Shown piece by piece: positions 3,517 to 12,217 of a DNA stretch of 64,000 bases. Within the stretch, counting starts at the first letter, position 1. The number at the start of each line of letters is the position of its first letter. Source of the stretch: Bacteroidota bacterium (lineage in GTDB: Bacteria; Bacteroidota; Bacteroidia; B-17B0; Aurantibacillaceae); assembly GCA_017303905.1 (NCBI GenBank), contig JAFLBH010000001.1, positions 124,001 to 188,000 on the forward strand, in the 5' to 3' direction. The translations under genes were made by a program, and so were the position numbers. The notes under the pieces are model-generated. The model did no database searches and was not told where the DNA came from. It saw nothing but the letters and a program-made list of their open reading frames with translations.

Positions 3517-5247
3517 TTATTTTTTAACTCCGTTTACATAGTTAATACGGCTTAATTCTTTTCCGTTTTTATCGTAAAAAATCCATTCTCCGTCAGCAAC
3601 GCTTTGCACTTTACCCTTCCGGCGTTCTTTTACTATTTTATAGCTGCTTACGCTCTGTAGTTTAGAATTACTATAATAAGAATAAGCCTTGCCTGTTAAT
3701 CGTCCTTTACTAAAATTTTGCTCCTTTAGCAATCCGCCCGTCTCATAATAATACTTCCAGGTACCTTCCTGATGACCTTTACGGTATTTACCCTGAGTAT
3801 CAATAAAACTTCCTCTTTCGTGGTACAACACATATTTACCGTGCTTAATTCCGTTTACATAAGCACATTGTTCGCGCGGATTTCCTTTATCGTACCAATA
3901 ATCCCAGGTGCCTGATTTCTTTCCCTTTGAATTATAATTCCCACTGTAATTAGCCTTGCCATTTGGGAACCATCCTTCCCATTTCCCCGTAAGTAATCCG
4001 TTCGTAAAATTGCCTTGATCCTTTAATTTACCATTATCCCACCAACTTTGCCATAGACCATTTTCTTTACCATTTACATAGGGACCTTCCTGCAATTTTT
4101 TCCCATTCTCGAACCAAGTCGTCCAAACCCCTGTTTTAATCCCATTCTCATAATTACCTTGTTTCCATTTTTCGCCGGTGCGATAAAAATATTCCCAGGT
4201 ACCATTTTGTTTATCATTTACAAACGTCCCTTCCGATTCTTTTTTACCATTGGAATAGTAGTAAGTCCAAACACCATCCCGTATTCCATCTTTTAAAGGG
4301 CCATGCATTTCGGGTTTACCATCTTCGGTATAAAACTTCCACATGCCGTTTTTCTTACCGTTAATAAAAGCGCCTTCACTTTTAATGTTGTGATTAACGT
4401 AATAGGAAGAATAGTATCCGTTTAGTATGCCTTCGCGATAATTCGCCTCATAGTCTAGCTCACCATTAGGATGAAAGAAACGCCAGATGCTATCTTGAAG
4501 TCCACCTTTATAACGACCGGTTGCTCTTAAAAAACCGTTATCATAATATACATAAATAAATCCATTTCCATTGGTAACTACTTGCTTGCCCTTGGCATCC
4601 CACATACTATACAAATAGAGGGTGCTGTCTTTATATTCTTTCTCAAACTTATTCGTTCCGTTTTCGTAATACTCCTGCCACTTTCCGCAAGGCTTTCCAT
4701 TGCAATACTGCCCTACTACCGATGTTTTTCCCGACTTATAATAGCTGGTAACTTCGCCATCCTTTTTATCCTTTACAAATTGTCCTTTGCTCTCTACTTG
4801 TCCGTTCTCATGATAATAAATCCACTCCCCTTCTTTTTTACCGTTTACAAAACTCTCGGTGCTTTTTACTTTTCCGGATTCATGGTAGGAAGTCCACACA
4901 CTATCAGCTAAATCATTCGTGAATTTGGTGATTTGCGCCAACTTTCCACTTTTGAAATAATACTTATTGGTTCCATATTTCTTGCCTCTGAAAAAACGTT
5001 CAACGGCCTTTATATTTCCATCATCAAAATAAAAAGTCCAAACACTGTCTTCCTTTCCATAATGATAAAAACCCTTACGTAAAAATTTTCCGTTTTTATA
5101 GTACTCAAAATAAGGGCCATGCGGCATGCCCTTGTAATAATCGGTTTCGCTTTTTACCTGGGTTTGTTCGGCATCATAATATTCTTTTTTAAGCTGAGAA
5201 AAGGTAACTGCCGGAATAAGTAAGATAAGAAGATATAAAAAACGCAT
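3517..5247 (-). CDS. large exported MORN-repeat protein (YwqK-like)
   Basis: This protein of about 576 residues has a signal peptide (MRFLYLLILLIPAVTFSQ) followed by about 22 tandem units of roughly 23 residues. Each unit has the pattern Y-Y-x-N-G-K, a few residues, G-x-Y/F, then G-x-W-x-x-Y. These are MORN/YwqK-type repeats, which fold as a beta-hairpin ladder. Database entries often label such proteins 'YwqK family antitoxin', but no toxin gene is adjacent and a secreted scaffold or adhesive role fits better. An upstream ATG at 5274 is open, but the TAAATTTG box at 5258-5251 sits between the two starts, which favours 5247. Function is unknown. Confidence 0.85.
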   Translation of the reverse strand: MRFLYLLILLIPAVTFSQLKKEYYDAEQTQVKSETDYYKGMPHGPYFEYYKNGKFLRKGFYHYGKEDSVWTFYFDDGNIKAVERFFRGKKYGTNKYYFKSGKLAQITKFTNDLADSVWTSYHESGKVKSTESFVNGKKEGEWIYYHENGQVESKGQFVKDKKDGEVTSYYKSGKTSVVGQYCNGKPCGKWQEYYENGTNKFEKEYKDSTLYLYSMWDAKGKQVVTNGNGFIYVYYDNGFLRATGRYKGGLQDSIWRFFHPNGELDYEANYREGILNGYYSSYYVNHNIKSEGAFINGKKNGMWKFYTEDGKPEMHGPLKDGIRDGVWTYYYSNGKKESEGTFVNDKQNGTWEYFYRTGEKWKQGNYENGIKTGVWTTWFENGKKLQEGPYVNGKENGLWQSWWDNGKLKDQGNFTNGLLTGKWEGWFPNGKANYSGNYNSKGKKSGTWDYWYDKGNPREQCAYVNGIKHGKYVLYHERGSFIDTQGKYRKGHQEGTWKYYYETGGLLKEQNFSKGRLTGKAYSYYSNSKLQSVSSYKIVKERRKGKVQSVADGEWIFYDKNGKELSRINYVNGVKK

Positions 5248-5413: not shown

Positions 5414-6826
5414 ATGATTAAAAAGAGTCTATATTTTGCTTTCTTGTTACTGGCAAATTCTGTGTTTTCTCAAAATGAATGGAACTTGCAGCAATGCGTT
5501 GATTATGCCTTGAAACATAACATTCTTTTAAAGCAGGCTGAGTTAAATAATCAAATACAAAAAAATAACACCTTACAATCTAAGGCCAATGTGCTTCCCA
5601 CTATCAATGGAGGCGCTGCACACACATATAACTTTGGTAGAACCATCGACCGATTCACGAATACGTTTGCAAATACGCAAGTTTTATCTCAAAACTTATT
5701 TCTCTCAAGCAATTTGGTACTATGGTCAGGACTATCGCAATTGAATAATATTAAAGCAAATGAATACGCTTATAAAGCCGGCGCTGAAAATATAAAACAA
5801 CAGCAATATGATTTATCACTGAATGTTGCAACTGCTTATATCAATGTAATTTACTCAGATGAATTACTTGGTATTGCTAAAAACCAATTCGACATTACTA
5901 AGCAACAATACGAACGTACTTTAAAATTAGCGGAGGCCGGTACTGTGGCCAAAAGCATGGTCTTTGATATCAAAGCACAGTTAGCGAATGAAGAAGTAAA
6001 TGTTACTACAGCCGACAACAACTATCAACTCGCCATGTTAACGTTGATGCAATTCATGAATCTGGATAGTTTAAATAATTTCAAAATCAGCAAGCCGGAT
6101 GTGGAAGTTCAGGGAGAAAATCTGTTGACAAACAGCGTACAAAACATATATGAAACAGCATTAAAAAATCAACCCTCCATTAAAAGTGCAGAGTATAATT
6201 TAAAAATGGCTGAAAAATCTTTAGCAGCAGCCAAAGGAAGAATTAGTCCAACAATTAGTTTAAACGGGTCGATTGGTACCGGTTACTCCGGATTAGCAAA
6301 AGAAGTTACAGGAATTAATGTAACCGGCTACGATACAACTGCTGTAACAACCGGCGGTGATTTTGTATTGAGTCCAACTTATATCCCTACTACTCGTGAT
6401 ATACCTTTTGCTGATCAATATAAAGACAATGTGAATAGAAGTATTGGTTTGACTTTAAGTGTTCCTATATTTAATGGCCTGCAAACACACACCGCTGTTA
6501 AGAATGCGAAAATAAATGCTTTAAATGCGAAATACAGTCAGGATTTAGCTGAACAAACACTTTACAAAAACATTGCGCAAGCATTTGCGAATGCCAGAGC
6601 CGCGCTTAATAAGTATGTAGCGTCTAAAGCCTCGGTTGAAGCATCACAAGAATCATTTAATTACGCGCAACAAAAATTTAATTTGGGGGCCATCAGCGCC
6701 TTTGATTTTAACTCTGCAAAATCTCGTTTAGCTAATGCGCAGAGCAATTTACTTCAAGCAAAGTTTGATTATCTTTTCAAATTAAAGGTGCTCGATTTTT
6801 ATATGGGCAAACCATTAACTTTCTAA
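5414..6826 (+). CDS. TolC-family outer-membrane efflux porin
   Basis: This 470-residue protein has a signal peptide (ending SVFSQ, about residue 20) followed by WNLQQCVDYALKHN, the usual start of OEP/TolC proteins. The two long alpha-helical repeats are recognisable by their A/N/Q/L-rich heptads; the second (about 350-460) contains the typical QQKFNLGAIS-F-F stretch. TolC proteins form trimeric outer-membrane exit ducts for RND pumps or type I secretion. No periplasmic adaptor or inner-membrane pump gene is adjacent, so this is an orphan porin that may partner with a pump elsewhere. Substrate unknown. Confidence 0.9.
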   Translation: MIKKSLYFAFLLLANSVFSQNEWNLQQCVDYALKHNILLKQAELNNQIQKNNTLQSKANVLPTINGGAAHTYNFGRTIDRFTNTFANTQVLSQNLFLSSNLVLWSGLSQLNNIKANEYAYKAGAENIKQQQYDLSLNVATAYINVIYSDELLGIAKNQFDITKQQYERTLKLAEAGTVAKSMVFDIKAQLANEEVNVTTADNNYQLAMLTLMQFMNLDSLNNFKISKPDVEVQGENLLTNSVQNIYETALKNQPSIKSAEYNLKMAEKSLAAAKGRISPTISLNGSIGTGYSGLAKEVTGINVTGYDTTAVTTGGDFVLSPTYIPTTRDIPFADQYKDNVNRSIGLTLSVPIFNGLQTHTAVKNAKINALNAKYSQDLAEQTLYKNIAQAFANARAALNKYVASKASVEASQESFNYAQQKFNLGAISAFDFNSAKSRLANAQSNLLQAKFDYLFKLKVLDFYMGKPLTF

Positions 6827-7013: not shown

Positions 7014-7021
7014 TACTTTTG
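7014..7021 (+). promoter_or_regulatory. TAnnTTTG -7 box for the small-peptide/TonB cluster
   Basis: TACTTTTG matches the consensus 26 bases before the ATG at 7048. It is the only good box between tolC and the TonB receptor, so it may drive all four genes from 7048 to 10265. Confidence 0.5.
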
Positions 7022-7047: not shown

Positions 7048-7263
7048 ATGAAAAAATTAAGCCTTATTACAATCGCTCTTATCTGTGTAGCCGTTGCAGT
7101 GAGCAATACAGGTAACTATGAAAAAGTAAACGAAATGCCATTTGATACAACGCAAAAAGAAATGCTATGGCCGGTTCATAAAAGAACCGAACATACAGGT
7201 GTAATTAAAGGCAGTCTCAATTTCCAGCCCGACAATAATGAGTTTTCATTAATCATGAATTAA
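7048..7263 (+). CDS. small exported peptide, unknown function
   Basis: This 71-residue protein begins MKKLSLITIALICVAVAVSN, a hydrophobic export signal, leaving a mature peptide of about 50 polar residues ending NNEFSLIMN. It has no cysteine in the mature part and no family I recognise. It is preceded by a good promoter box, followed 10 bases later by a lipoprotein gene, and is the first member of a run of small exported proteins ending in a TonB-dependent receptor. The good signal sequence, start and placement make it likely to be real, but nothing in it gives a function. Confidence 0.6.
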   Translation: MKKLSLITIALICVAVAVSNTGNYEKVNEMPFDTTQKEMLWPVHKRTEHTGVIKGSLNFQPDNNEFSLIMN

Positions 7264-7273
7264 ACCCTTAACC

Positions 7274-7501
7274 ATGAAAAAAATTTTCTTTTTAACCTTA
7301 CTAATTTTCACTTTAGCGTCCTGCGAAAAAACCAAAAAACACGCTTGCTTTTGCACCCATCGCTCAATTGGCATGTTTGGAGGCGAATGTGTAAACACCA
7401 CCACCCTTTCGATTCAGGATACAAAACGAAAAGCGATTCAAGAGTGCAATGATTTGTCGGGTGGCGACATGTGGCACAACATCGAATGTGCGATTAAATA
7501 A
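7274..7501 (+). CDS. small cysteine-rich lipoprotein (copy A)
   Basis: This 75-residue protein has the lipoprotein signal MKKIFFLTLLIFTLASC, with a lipobox ending at C17. The mature part is short and carries CFC, MFGG, TKRKA followed by a cysteine, and MWHNIEC near the C-terminus. It is clearly a paralogue of the next gene (7527-7769), which keeps the CEK start, a C-x-C, FG, TKRKA-x-x-x-C, W and a near-terminal C. The conserved cysteines could form two disulfides. I do not recognise the family. It is probably anchored in the periplasmic or outer face of the envelope and co-transcribed with the TonB receptor. Confidence 0.72.
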   Translation: MKKIFFLTLLIFTLASCEKTKKHACFCTHRSIGMFGGECVNTTTLSIQDTKRKAIQECNDLSGGDMWHNIECAIK

Positions 7502-7526
7502 TTACCTACATAAAAAACCAAACATC

Positions 7527-7769
7527 ATGAAAACAACACCATTAACGCTATTTGCATTTATTATCGTCTTGATTTTTTCTTCCTGTGAGAAAAAAAATTA
7601 CACCTGCGCATGTACAATTACCGAAAAAAGTCTATTTGGCAGCAACAGCACAACACATACTCAATTATATACTGTTTATGGGACAAAAAGAAAAGCAGAG
7701 AAAAAATGCCGTGATTACGAGCCGTCTGGTGTTCAGATTTGGACAAGTACTTCTTGTACGCTACGTTAA
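7527..7769 (+). CDS. small cysteine-rich lipoprotein (copy B)
   Basis: This 80-residue protein starts at the ATG at 7527. A longer frame exists upstream but overlaps copy A and lacks a signal. The signal is MKTTPLTLFAFIIVLIFSSC. The mature part reads CEKKN, CAC, SLFGS, TKRKAEKKC and STSC, matching copy A feature for feature; the region between FG and TKRKA is about as long but differs in sequence. This looks like a tandem duplication followed by divergence. The gene ends 33 bases before the TonB receptor start. Function unknown. Confidence 0.72.
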   Translation: MKTTPLTLFAFIIVLIFSSCEKKNYTCACTITEKSLFGSNSTTHTQLYTVYGTKRKAEKKCRDYEPSGVQIWTSTSCTLR

Positions 7770-7802
7770 AATGAAATATTTAAAATTTTACTATTATTGT
7801 AT

Positions 7803-10265
7803 ATGAAAAAATGTTTAGTGATTTTAAACCTGCTTTTCTGCAGTACTTTTTTACATTCGCAAAATTATTTCCAAAACGTAAAAGGTAAGGTAACCGATAA
7901 AGCTACAGGCATTGGTCTGCCCGGAGTAGTCGTTAAAATGCTGAACGATAGCTCCAAAAAAATCAACGCCATTACTGATGGTAATGGTTTTTATAAACTT
8001 ACCAAAGTTCCGATTGGTCGCCGAGATTTTGTTTTTGCTCTAATGGGTTACAAAACAGTTCCGGCTAATGATATAATTATCACAAGTGGAAAAGAATATA
8101 TACTGGATGTTGAACTGGAAGAATCACTAGTTGAAATGGCCGAAGTGGAAGTAAGTGCAGAAAACAGTAAAGATGTAATTGCCGATATGCAAGCCGTAAA
8201 CATGAAAGCTTTTACACTTGAAGAAATTGAACGCTATCCGGGTTCGCGACAAGATCCTGCACGTATGGCACAAAATTTTGCGGGTGTACAAGGAACTAAC
8301 GACAGCAGAAACGATATTGTAGTTCGTGGTAATTCACCGGCAGGTTTATTATGGCGTATGGAAGAAGTAGATATTCCGAATCCGAATCACTTTGCTATTG
8401 CAGGAAGCGCCGGCGGACCTCAATCTATCATTAATAACAAATATTTAGCGAACTCCGAATTTTTCACAGGAGCCTTTCCTTCTAATTACGGTAATGCTTT
8501 AGGCGGTGTGTTTGATTTAAAAATGCGTAATGGTAATAACGAAAAACACGAACGCACTATTCAGCTTGGTATCCTAGGAACTGAAGCGGCTATTGAAGGT
8601 CCGCTCAGTAAAAAAAGTGGGGCGAGTTATTTAATTACGTATCGCTACTCTACACTTGCTTTATTTCAGGCATTTAAAATTCCAATTAGTTTTGGAACGA
8701 GCGCCATTCCTGAATATCAGGATGGAGGATTCAGATTTAATTTTCCAACCAAAAATGCCGGCGTGTTTAGCTTTAGCGGAATTGGAGGTTTAAGCAGTAT
8801 TGATATCGAATTAAGTAAAGTAAGGGAAAAGCCGAAAGAACTATATGGCGATCAAACACGTGATCAATATTTCAGAAGTAACATGGGCGTATGTATGTTG
8901 AATCATACTTATTCATTTAATACACGCACGCTGATGAAAACAACATTAGCATTTAGCTCTCAGCAAATTTTCTCCGATCATTATTTAATTCTTCGTGATG
9001 CTAATTATGTTCCTGATTCAATTACACCACATATTCTAAACTATAATCAACGCGAAAATAAAACCACTTTAAGTTGGTTTGTTAAACGCAAAGTAAATGC
9101 GGCGAATAGTTTTAAAACCGGATTCTTTGTGAATGAATTTAATGTGAAATATTTTGACAGAGCTAAAATCAATTCATTGTACGATACACTACCCGGTGAC
9201 ATCATGTCAAAACCATGGAAGCAACGATTAGGAAACATTAATGATTACTTCCTGATTCAGCCTTATATTAATTTTTCGCATCGCTTCAACGAAAAATGGA
9301 GTGCAAACATCGGATTGCACGGACAATATCTTACTTTGAATAACAAATGGACCATTGAACCGCGCGCTAATTTACGTTATCAATTCAAAGACAATCAAAC
9401 CTTGAGTTTAGCATACGGCATGCACAGTCAAATGCAACCCGGTTATATTTATTATGCCATTCCCGATAGTTTAATTCGTGACGGTGTGATAACTGCGAAC
9501 ACGGAGCGCGTGATGGATAATAAAAATCTTGATTTTAGTAAATCGCATCACGTAGTATTAGGATATGATTTGCAGGTGAGTAAATACTTCCGCGTAAAAA
9601 CAGAAGCTTATTATCAATATTTGTGGAATATTCCGGTTTACGCAAAACCTTCCGGTATTTCATTAATTAATCGTGGCGCAACCTTTACCCGTTTCTTCCC
9701 GCTTTATACTATGGAAAATAAAGGAACGGGTTATAATTACGGTTTAGAATTAACCCTCGAAAAATTATTTCACAAACATTATTTCGTGATGTATAGCGCG
9801 AGTATTTATGACAGTAAATACACAGCGAGCAACGGAAAAACTTACGATAGTGATTTCAACGGTAACTATATGATGAATTTATTAGCCGGTGTTGAATACG
9901 GATTAGGTAAGAGTAAGAAAAACAGCATCAATGTTTCTACTAAATTCACTTATGGCGGAGGTAAACGCTATTCACCTGTTAACTTAGCGGCAAGTAATGC
10001 CATTATGGATGTTGTGCCGGATGAAAACGCTATTAACTCCAGGCAATTCGATCCGTACAATCGTCTCGATTTTAGAATTGCATATAAAATCAATGCAAAG
10101 AAATCGAGCTGGGAAATTGCATTTGACTTAGTAAACGTAATGGGCACTAAAAATGTATTAGCTCTAAGTTATGCTCCCGATCCGGCTAATTTTAATGCCG
10201 ATCCATTGATAAAAAATTATCAGTTAGGATTCCTTCCTTTATTCTATGTGAAAGTTGATTTTTAA
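7803..10265 (+). CDS. TonB-dependent receptor with carboxypeptidase-like N-terminal domain
   Basis: This 820-residue outer-membrane receptor has a signal peptide (ending LHSQ, about residue 20). A CarboxypepD_reg-like beta-sandwich at about 27-110 (KGKVTDKATGIGLPGVVV) is followed by a TonB plug with IVVRGNSPAGLLWRMEEVDI at about 170-190. A long 22-strand type barrel follows, ending in the aromatic FYVKVDF expected for outer-membrane insertion. These receptors import large ligands such as siderophores, oligosaccharides or peptides using TonB energy. There is no SusD partner, so a glycan-utilisation locus is unlikely. The neighbouring small exported peptides may be accessory factors or ligands (inference). 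Start is the ATG at 7803. The stop overlaps the next convergent gene by TTAA. Confidence 0.92.
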   Translation: MKKCLVILNLLFCSTFLHSQNYFQNVKGKVTDKATGIGLPGVVVKMLNDSSKKINAITDGNGFYKLTKVPIGRRDFVFALMGYKTVPANDIIITSGKEYILDVELEESLVEMAEVEVSAENSKDVIADMQAVNMKAFTLEEIERYPGSRQDPARMAQNFAGVQGTNDSRNDIVVRGNSPAGLLWRMEEVDIPNPNHFAIAGSAGGPQSIINNKYLANSEFFTGAFPSNYGNALGGVFDLKMRNGNNEKHERTIQLGILGTEAAIEGPLSKKSGASYLITYRYSTLALFQAFKIPISFGTSAIPEYQDGGFRFNFPTKNAGVFSFSGIGGLSSIDIELSKVREKPKELYGDQTRDQYFRSNMGVCMLNHTYSFNTRTLMKTTLAFSSQQIFSDHYLILRDANYVPDSITPHILNYNQRENKTTLSWFVKRKVNAANSFKTGFFVNEFNVKYFDRAKINSLYDTLPGDIMSKPWKQRLGNINDYFLIQPYINFSHRFNEKWSANIGLHGQYLTLNNKWTIEPRANLRYQFKDNQTLSLAYGMHSQMQPGYIYYAIPDSLIRDGVITANTERVMDNKNLDFSKSHHVVLGYDLQVSKYFRVKTEAYYQYLWNIPVYAKPSGISLINRGATFTRFFPLYTMENKGTGYNYGLELTLEKLFHKHYFVMYSASIYDSKYTASNGKTYDSDFNGNYMMNLLAGVEYGLGKSKKNSINVSTKFTYGGGKRYSPVNLAASNAIMDVVPDENAINSRQFDPYNRLDFRIAYKINAKKSSWEIAFDLVNVMGTKNVLALSYAPDPANFNADPLIKNYQLGFLPLFYVKVDF

Positions 10266-12217
10266 ATTCGAATGCCGATGATACAAACATCATCAATTTG
10301 TTCGAGCTGACCTTTCCAGTTATTGAAAGCATCAGATAAAATTTGTCTTTGCTCAATTAAAGGCTTTTGCCAATTAGCAAGCAATATATCTTCGAGTTGT
10401 TTATACTTAAACTTTTTGCCTTTTGGTCCGCCGAACTGATCGGCAAATCCATCTGTAAACATCACGATCATATCTCCCTTCTTCAACTTTACTTCTTTAT
10501 TAGCAAACATAAATCCGTCGTTATCTACCATGGCGCTTACCGCATGTTTCTGTGCTTTTATCACATGTAAAACATCATCTGTGATATGATAAATAGAATT
10601 ATTGGCCCCACTCACTTTCAAATTCAAATTAGCACGATCAATTTCACAAATACTCACATCCATGCCATCTTTAATTTGCTCACCGCGCGTTTCGTTTTTA
10701 AACACCTTGGGCATTTCTTCATTAACGTAATTCAAGATATCTGCAGGCGTTCTGGTATTATCCCCTTCTTCCGATTTTGTAAGTAAAGAATAACCCAATA
10801 AACTCATGAACGCACCCGGAACGCCATGTCCGGTTGAATCACAGCAAGCCATGATAAATTTTCCGTTTTCCCTTTTTGTTGCCCAATAAAAATCACCACT
10901 CACAATATCCTTTGATTGATAATAAACAAAATGTTCGCCGGCCTTTTCAACTAATTCTTCATGACTCGGAAGAATTCCGTCTTGTATCCGTTTGCTATAA
11001 TTGATACTGTCAAGGATTTCTTTCTTCTGCTGGTTGATCTCTGTGTTTTGCTTCTCAAGGATTGTGTTGGCGTTTTTCTTATCTCTAAACAACTTGTAAA
11101 CAAAACCTAATCCGACAATCGTTAAACAAATTATAACCAATCCCAGTATTATAGTTATCTTATTTCGCTTAAGCTTTAAAGTATTATTTGCATTCGAAAG
11201 CTTCGCGATTTCCAATTCCTTTTCAGTTTTCATACTTGCATACTTATTCTCCTGTTCGCTATTTAATCTTATTTTTTCCGAATTAGTTAAACTATCATCG
11301 TAAGCTTGATAACTTTGTAAAGCAGCATAAGCGCCTTTATAATCCTTTAGATTCTGGTAGCAAGTATGTAATCCATTATAGTTTCTGCGAAGTTCCTGAA
11401 AATCTTCAGGTGAAATCAGCTTTAAATTTTCTTCGTATAGCTTTGCTCCTTTTGCGTATTCACCCACGCTTGTATAATAATGCGCCGTAAAATAATTGGA
11501 AGATTGCCTATGATCATTTATAGTGTCGAGTTTGATATACTCATACATTTTCTGCAATTGTTCGTAAGCCTTTTTATAATCCTTCACCTTTAGATAACAT
11601 TCCATTTTATTCCCCATTAACGAGGGTAGAAAATCATTCATGTTAATTTCCTTTGCAATATTTTCTGAAATCCCTAAAAAATGCAGAGCAAGAACTGAAT
11701 TATCCATGTTAATATAATCTACTGCCAAATTATTTGCGGCTGAGAACTGCAATCTTTTTCTATTCAGTTTTACGCCTATATCATAGCATTTACGGAAATA
11801 ATAAATTGCACGTTTACTGTTGTTTTGATTGGAAGCTATAATACCTAAATTATTATACACGTTCGATTGAGCTTGTAAATGCCCAATTTCCTCTGACAAG
11901 GCTAAAGACTTATAATAATATGGCATGGCCGCATCATATCTTGAAAATTGAAAATAAACAGCACCTGAAAGAAAATAGGCATTCACCATCAACCTCGGAT
12001 TGTTTGATTTTGTAGCCAAATCCATCAATTTAACACTCCACTCACGTTTTAACTCAAATGGAGCGTCTTCAGACAAAACAATATTCGCAAGTCGAAGAAA
12101 TTTAGAAGTATCCGGTAAAGTCATTTTATAAATGATATCAAGGCTGTCGATCTGTGCTTTTTGCACAAAGGAGATTAACAGAAATGATATAATTGCAAAG
12201 ACTTTTTTCACCGACAT
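10262..12217 (-). CDS. TPR sensor with SpoIIE-type PP2C phosphatase
   Basis: This 651-residue protein has a signal peptide (to about 22), a tetratricopeptide array (about 60-320), one membrane helix (about 355-378, ITIILGLVIICLTIVGLGF) and a coiled coil containing QKKEILDSINYSKRIQDGIL. A SpoIIE/PP2C serine phosphatase domain (about 430-651) follows, with metal ligands in VSGDFYW, CDSTGHGVPGAFMS and TDGFADQFGG. The TPRs lie outside the membrane and the phosphatase in the cytoplasm. SpoIIE enzymes dephosphorylate anti-sigma antagonists or similar proteins; the target here is unknown. The C-terminal half closely matches that of 16524-19667. Confidence 0.93.
   Translation of the reverse strand: MSVKKVFAIISFLLISFVQKAQIDSLDIIYKMTLPDTSKFLRLANIVLSEDAPFELKREWSVKLMDLATKSNNPRLMVNAYFLSGAVYFQFSRYDAAMPYYYKSLALSEEIGHLQAQSNVYNNLGIIASNQNNSKRAIYYFRKCYDIGVKLNRKRLQFSAANNLAVDYINMDNSVLALHFLGISENIAKEINMNDFLPSLMGNKMECYLKVKDYKKAYEQLQKMYEYIKLDTINDHRQSSNYFTAHYYTSVGEYAKGAKLYEENLKLISPEDFQELRRNYNGLHTCYQNLKDYKGAYAALQSYQAYDDSLTNSEKIRLNSEQENKYASMKTEKELEIAKLSNANNTLKLKRNKITIILGLVIICLTIVGLGFVYKLFRDKKNANTILEKQNTEINQQKKEILDSINYSKRIQDGILPSHEELVEKAGEHFVYYQSKDIVSGDFYWATKRENGKFIMACCDSTGHGVPGAFMSLLGYSLLTKSEEGDNTRTPADILNYVNEEMPKVFKNETRGEQIKDGMDVSICEIDRANLNLKVSGANNSIYHITDDVLHVIKAQKHAVSAMVDNDGFMFANKEVKLKKGDMIVMFTDGFADQFGGPKGKKFKYKQLEDILLANWQKPLIEQRQILSDAFNNWKGQLEQIDDVCIIGIRI

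Follow-up and report, generated by a model that had tools for sequence, protein, structure and literature searches.

What two very small, cysteine-containing lipoproteins do in front of a TonB-dependent receptor, and whether they belong to this receptor at all, is the question raised by positions 7048-10265 of the window, a name used here for the whole analysed stretch of 64 kb (G000:C1:124001-188000, from a genome of 3.95 Mb). The initial annotation described three small exported genes running head to tail into the receptor, and all four ORFs were found in place on the plus strand, separated by gaps of 10, 25 and 33 nt. Gene A (7048-7263) encodes an exported peptide of 71 aa with a signal peptide, gene B (7274-7501) a lipoprotein of 75 aa with an LASC lipobox and the spacing C-x-C ... 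C ... C, and gene C (7527-7769; its start is placed earlier in the mechanical ORF list) a paralogous lipoprotein of 80 aa with an FSSC lipobox. The receptor (7803-10265) is 820 aa long and carries a CarboxypepD_reg domain above the Pfam cut-off and a weak Plug match below it. Gene A is preceded on the same strand by a gene (5414-6826) whose product, judged from its translation, we take to be an outer membrane protein of the TolC type. The adjacent genes that were read (MORN-type ORF, TolC-like, TPR/PP2C and GltX) included none for SusD, siderophores or heme, in agreement with the initial annotation.

The claim of a single promoter box also held. On the plus strand between 6800 and 7900, TAnnTTTG, the consensus of the Bacteroidetes-type -7 box, has its sole match at 7014-7021 (TACTTTTG), upstream of A, with none between A and the receptor. 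This is a match to the consensus only, with no -33 element recognised beside it, and across the 64-kb window the same consensus occurs 39 times on one strand and 41 times on the other. Genes A, B, C and the receptor are probably co-transcribed. Gene A is an orphan, with homologues only in the window and in the sister genome G006 (96% identical), and Rfam gave no RNA element above cut-off in the leader and gene A. The impression that this stretch is unusually conserved relative to G006 was discarded, as another stretch of the same region gave a lower value.

B and C are true paralogues inside a large unnamed family of Bacteroidota, which bears out their initially proposed relationship. A search of the own genome with C returned B (E 4.6e-8) and further places, and B and C match the family profile, whose 30 rows include both of them, with E-values of 1.9e-16 and 1.4e-17. 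The family has the framework C-KK-Y-x-C-x-C ... [ST]K-x-x-A-x-x-x-C ... C, in which the lipobox cysteine and a lysine-rich start are followed by the C-x-C, a variable hairpin, the [ST]K-x-x-A-x-x-x-C stretch, another variable loop and a final cysteine near the C terminus. The lipid cysteine, one lysine, the C-x-C, one alanine and two later cysteines are near-invariant (alignments A1-A3). Both proteins of the window have the features by which members were recognised: the lipobox cysteine, the C-x-C, the alanine and cysteine of the [ST]K-rich stretch and the last cysteine near the C terminus. The FG and tryptophan that had been listed among the preserved motifs are indeed common to B and C, but do not extend to the whole family.

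The cysteines may form two disulfides of putative pairing, as proposed initially. This number fits C exactly (lipid Cys 20, then Cys 27, 29, 61 and 77), whereas B, with five cysteines besides the lipid one, has one more than C and would leave one spare. The mature proteins comprise only 59 and 61 aa for B and C. AlphaFold2 predicted a beta-beta-alpha-beta order common to the two, with pLDDT values near 80-90 over most ordered residues and a modest pTM of 0.53-0.54, and the idea that selection has kept a common fold is supported. None of the families in the searched copies of Pfam, NCBIfam and PHROG covers B, C or the 30 members, so the family is new to these collections, as the initial annotation had supposed for B and C; above cut-off, Pfam and NCBIfam gave the pair only the lipoprotein attachment site in B. 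Foldseek and VIA-align gave no convincing solved or viral structural relative, sequence searches of the PDB gave no match to either the family or the receptor, and PurS subunits, considered as a structural relative, were rejected, their best Z of 6.2 being at the level of common arrangements.

The own genome contains 21 matches to the 30-member profile at E<=0.01, and matches at the same threshold were found in 34 of the 41 genomes searched, the own one included. Tandem arrays of 2-5 copies are common. Gene contexts were counted at about 100 loci from relatives and named genome contigs, a few places among them fetched twice under different names, and this census comprised 181 family ORFs in 103 arrays. 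Sampling across the phylum added at least two other genomes, a lower bound with at most 19 candidates scored per genome. The family is lineage-expanded and dispersed, and reaches about 20 copies in a genome of this lineage. Near a contig end of the own genome (G000:C1:1825407-1832057, L009) family copies are clustered, and two of them have an identical mature sequence 5.8 kb apart, which suggests recent duplication. The only match to the family in a viral collection lies at 5001-5168 of the IMG/VR contig L147, a candidate member in a candidate phage.

Proximity to a receptor is not a property of this family. In only 2 of the 103 arrays, those of the window and of G006, was a TonB receptor detected as the gene that follows downstream, although a very distant receptor may escape the profile used, which was built from relatives of the window receptor. 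The link to receptors, drawn initially from gene order, therefore fails at the level of the family, as its homologues are scattered with no receptor nearby, the outcome that the initial annotation had itself named as speaking against it. Seen from the receptor, the picture is similar. Its orthologue occurs in 7 of the 8 genus genomes and in other genera as well, in most cases with neither B nor C; A and B were found only in the window and G006, and C is absent from G006.

A weaker form of the idea survives, since other small lipoproteins precede the receptor in related genomes. Wherever the upstream DNA is readable in the genus, the TolC-like gene comes before the receptor, and in 5 of the 7 members with the receptor a small lipoprotein gene lies 24-82 nt upstream of it, but not the same one: G007, G002 and G004 have other, dissimilar lipoproteins at 24, 35 and 82 nt. 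In these three genomes the leaders are homologous to one another, and a TACATTTG box precedes the lipoprotein gene. Of 279 other genes sampled across the genus, none had a non-family small lipoprotein in front of it, and of 41 in the window one did; the slot before the receptor is thus unusual, with the reservation that this background came mostly from regions chosen for the family and that the genus genomes are few and related. A paralogous receptor (G000:C3:253493; L273, G000:C3:252300-254000, and L274-L280) likewise follows directly on an exported gene in 8 of 8 genus genomes; this gene encodes a protein of roughly 153 aa and stops no more than about 7 nt from where the receptor begins (under the mechanical start the two ORFs overlap in L278). 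One possible explanation is that the slot lipoprotein is a receptor-specific partner acting in gating, assembly or periplasmic hand-over of a ligand, whose sequence turns over fast while its position is kept, B and C being the present occupants. This explanation is rather doubtful: the occupants are not recognisably homologous, G001 has no lipoprotein before the receptor and G005 a 195-aa ORF instead, and no small lipoprotein precedes receptor orthologues outside the genus. Nothing in these results favours peptide import, one of the roles considered initially. The link between receptor and lipoprotein is a positional habit at the level of the genus, the meaning of which is uncertain.

Comparison with G006 shows how differently the genes of the unit have changed. 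The receptor is 99% identical (dN 0.005, dN/dS about 0.02), whereas B has 85% amino acid identity (dN 0.076, dN/dS about 0.24), a non-synonymous rate about 14 times faster; for A, dN is 0.018, dS 0.049 and dN/dS about 0.36, calculated from only five nucleotide changes, so that A is a rather tentative gene. Gene C was either gained in the lineage of the window or lost in the sister. Another explanation of the locus could be simply that B and C are passengers, mobile and duplicating copies that landed between the TolC-like gene and the receptor and have no functional tie to either. The roughly 20 copies at unrelated sites of the own genome, the presence or absence of C between sister genomes and the fast change of B beside a nearly constant receptor all agree with it. 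The dN/dS of B nevertheless indicates purifying selection, that is a function, though not a tie to the receptor, and the slot holds other lipoproteins in relatives; the passenger explanation is a serious one, if somewhat short of an even chance. Downstream of the receptor, the TPR/PP2C gene (SpoIIE-type, window 10262-12217, minus strand) is about 95% identical to G006 at the DNA level in its C-terminal part, while about 29-52% of sites per 100 nt differ in its N-terminal half (window 11050-12150), a pattern as after replacement of one half.

The fast turnover of the lipoproteins in front of a conserved receptor is also what might be expected if they shield the receptor from phages on the periplasmic side. 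Such a mechanism is described for Llp of phage T5, which binds the plug of FhuA from the periplasm and alters its outer loops (PMC9586334). The occurrence of a small cysteine-containing lipoprotein beside a TonB receptor makes this attractive in outline, and at E<=0.1 the Cor profile phrog_1119 picks up 15 of the 30 family members. The sequence support vanished on testing, however: the full-length matches are lost once the signal peptide is removed, the mature sequences giving no Cor match, and homology to Cor was rejected. Moreover, tblastn with one family member found nothing in plasmids and in 50,697 phage records, and elsewhere the family is linked to redox genes rather than receptors. A role in phage exclusion is therefore very improbable.

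The conserved genomic partner of the family is not the receptor but a membrane protein in which a MauE domain is fused to a thioredoxin-like domain. In a recurrent operon-like arrangement, one to four family copies stand directly before the gene of this protein, which follows on the same strand after 34-177 nt in 20 arrays (some of them the same place fetched twice). The protein is about 313 aa long, with a MauE domain recognised at E 8.4e-22 and a thioredoxin part that gives only a weak Thioredoxin_9 match below the Pfam cut-off. It has two conserved cysteine pairs, a C-x-C in the MauE membrane domain (Cys106 and Cys108) and a C-x-x-C in the thioredoxin-like domain (Cys218 and Cys221), these residues being kept in 17-20 of 20 copies. 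The reverse search gave the same association: a family member lies directly upstream of 30 of the 42 MauE-thioredoxin genes with readable upstream DNA (16 of 21 in one batch and 14 of 21 further genes in the next), and such cases were found in five taxonomic families (f1, f16, f69, f75 and f77).

This linkage is common in the family, not universal, and it does not include the window, where B and C are followed by the receptor. The MauE-thioredoxin gene of the own genome is located on another contig (G000:C3:456659-457594). Most arrays, the window pair among them, adjoin no recognised thioredoxin-fold gene; G021 has 17 family matches and no MauE-thioredoxin match, and in the genus g2 none of the 7 readable MauE-thioredoxin genes has a family member upstream. 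In two genomes of this genus (G023:C37:6462-9796 and G008:C49:196781-200163) the MauE-thioredoxin gene is convergent with the orthologue of the window receptor, at a distance of 35-44 nt.

Several other thioredoxin-fold proteins are encoded next to family members. The membrane proteins downstream of the arrays in L113 and L120 match the MauE-thioredoxin profile (5.5e-8 and 9.4e-6) and have a thioredoxin-like part, with a Pfam Thioredoxin_9 match in L113 only; in the own genome a Redoxin gene lies 29 nt upstream of the copy at C1:1430k. An SCO1/SenC gene is directly downstream in L132, and the downstream genes of L136 and L144 fall in the same cluster as it. C-x-C is a known soft-metal motif, and the SCO1/SenC neighbours might indicate that the four cysteines bind a metal, Cu(I) or Zn, instead of forming disulfides, and that the thioredoxin-fold neighbours are reductases related to metallochaperones. 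This is unlikely, given that SCO1 adjoins only three arrays, that no histidine or methionine is conserved in the family alignments, and that the main partner is the MauE-thioredoxin fusion, a kind of protein associated with disulfide formation.

From the repeated company with different thioredoxin-fold proteins, the most likely role of the family is in membrane disulfide exchange, as a client or electron partner on the periplasmic side. Its members would be membrane-anchored and extend into the periplasm; the thioredoxin domain of the fusion may swap disulfides with their four cysteines, and the C-x-C of the MauE domain might pass electrons further, probably to quinone. Both this coupling and the direction in which electrons move are extrapolated from known MauE and DsbB/VKOR-type proteins. 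With its gene on G000:C3, the relay would have to serve B and C in trans; these two are dispersed members of the family that have presumably come to share a transcription unit with a conserved TonB receptor. Any action on the receptor, should there be one, would most naturally involve contact from its periplasmic side. That the lipoproteins are dedicated clients or electron partners of a MauE-thioredoxin relay, serving B and C in trans, has a little better than an even chance; weighing against it are the arrays that adjoin no thioredoxin-fold gene, the exceptions in g2 and G021, the thioredoxin part below the Pfam cut-off and the modest pTM of the models. A bolder extension, in which the relay and its multiplying two-disulfide clients form a periplasmic thiol-disulfide system new in Bacteroidota, some copies being recruited to gate TonB receptors from inside, seems improbable.

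The recurrent coupling of the lipoprotein and MauE-thioredoxin genes offers a concrete and testable pair of client and enzyme for disulfide chemistry in a phylum for which, in our judgement, little is known about partners dedicated to MauE-type proteins. It also counsels caution in reading function from gene order at one locus, where the receptor next door proved not to be the general partner of the family. Searches of the literature on MauE-thioredoxin proteins, BT_3928 and small TonB-linked lipoproteins returned nothing relevant.

Among known systems, SusD-like proteins and the other surface lipoproteins that accompany Bacteroidota receptors resemble the locus in that a lipoprotein is encoded next to a TonB receptor. 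The SusD-like ones are of much greater size and are conserved together with their receptor, and B and C, at their mature size and with no SusD/RagB match above cut-off in Pfam or NCBIfam, were not assigned to them. Llp of T5 and Cor of HK022 and phi80 are like B and C in size, lipobox, cysteine content and, at this one locus, closeness to a receptor; unlike them, the family has no phage members found and its conserved partner is a redox protein. The MauE-thioredoxin protein aligns over residues 12-168 with the BT_3928 family (NCBIfam NF045576), but its 58 bits against a cut-off of 250 exclude it from membership. In organisation there is a likeness to MauE/MauD of methylamine utilisation and to DsbA/DsbB or VKOR-type relays, which likewise combine a membrane domain bearing a cysteine pair with a thioredoxin-like C-x-x-C; the partner gene of the family, like theirs, adjoins genes for cysteine-containing exported proteins. 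It differs from these systems in that its thioredoxin part matches Pfam only weakly and in that it is one fused protein, whose neighbours are tandem tiny lipoproteins in place of the small subunit of methylamine dehydrogenase.
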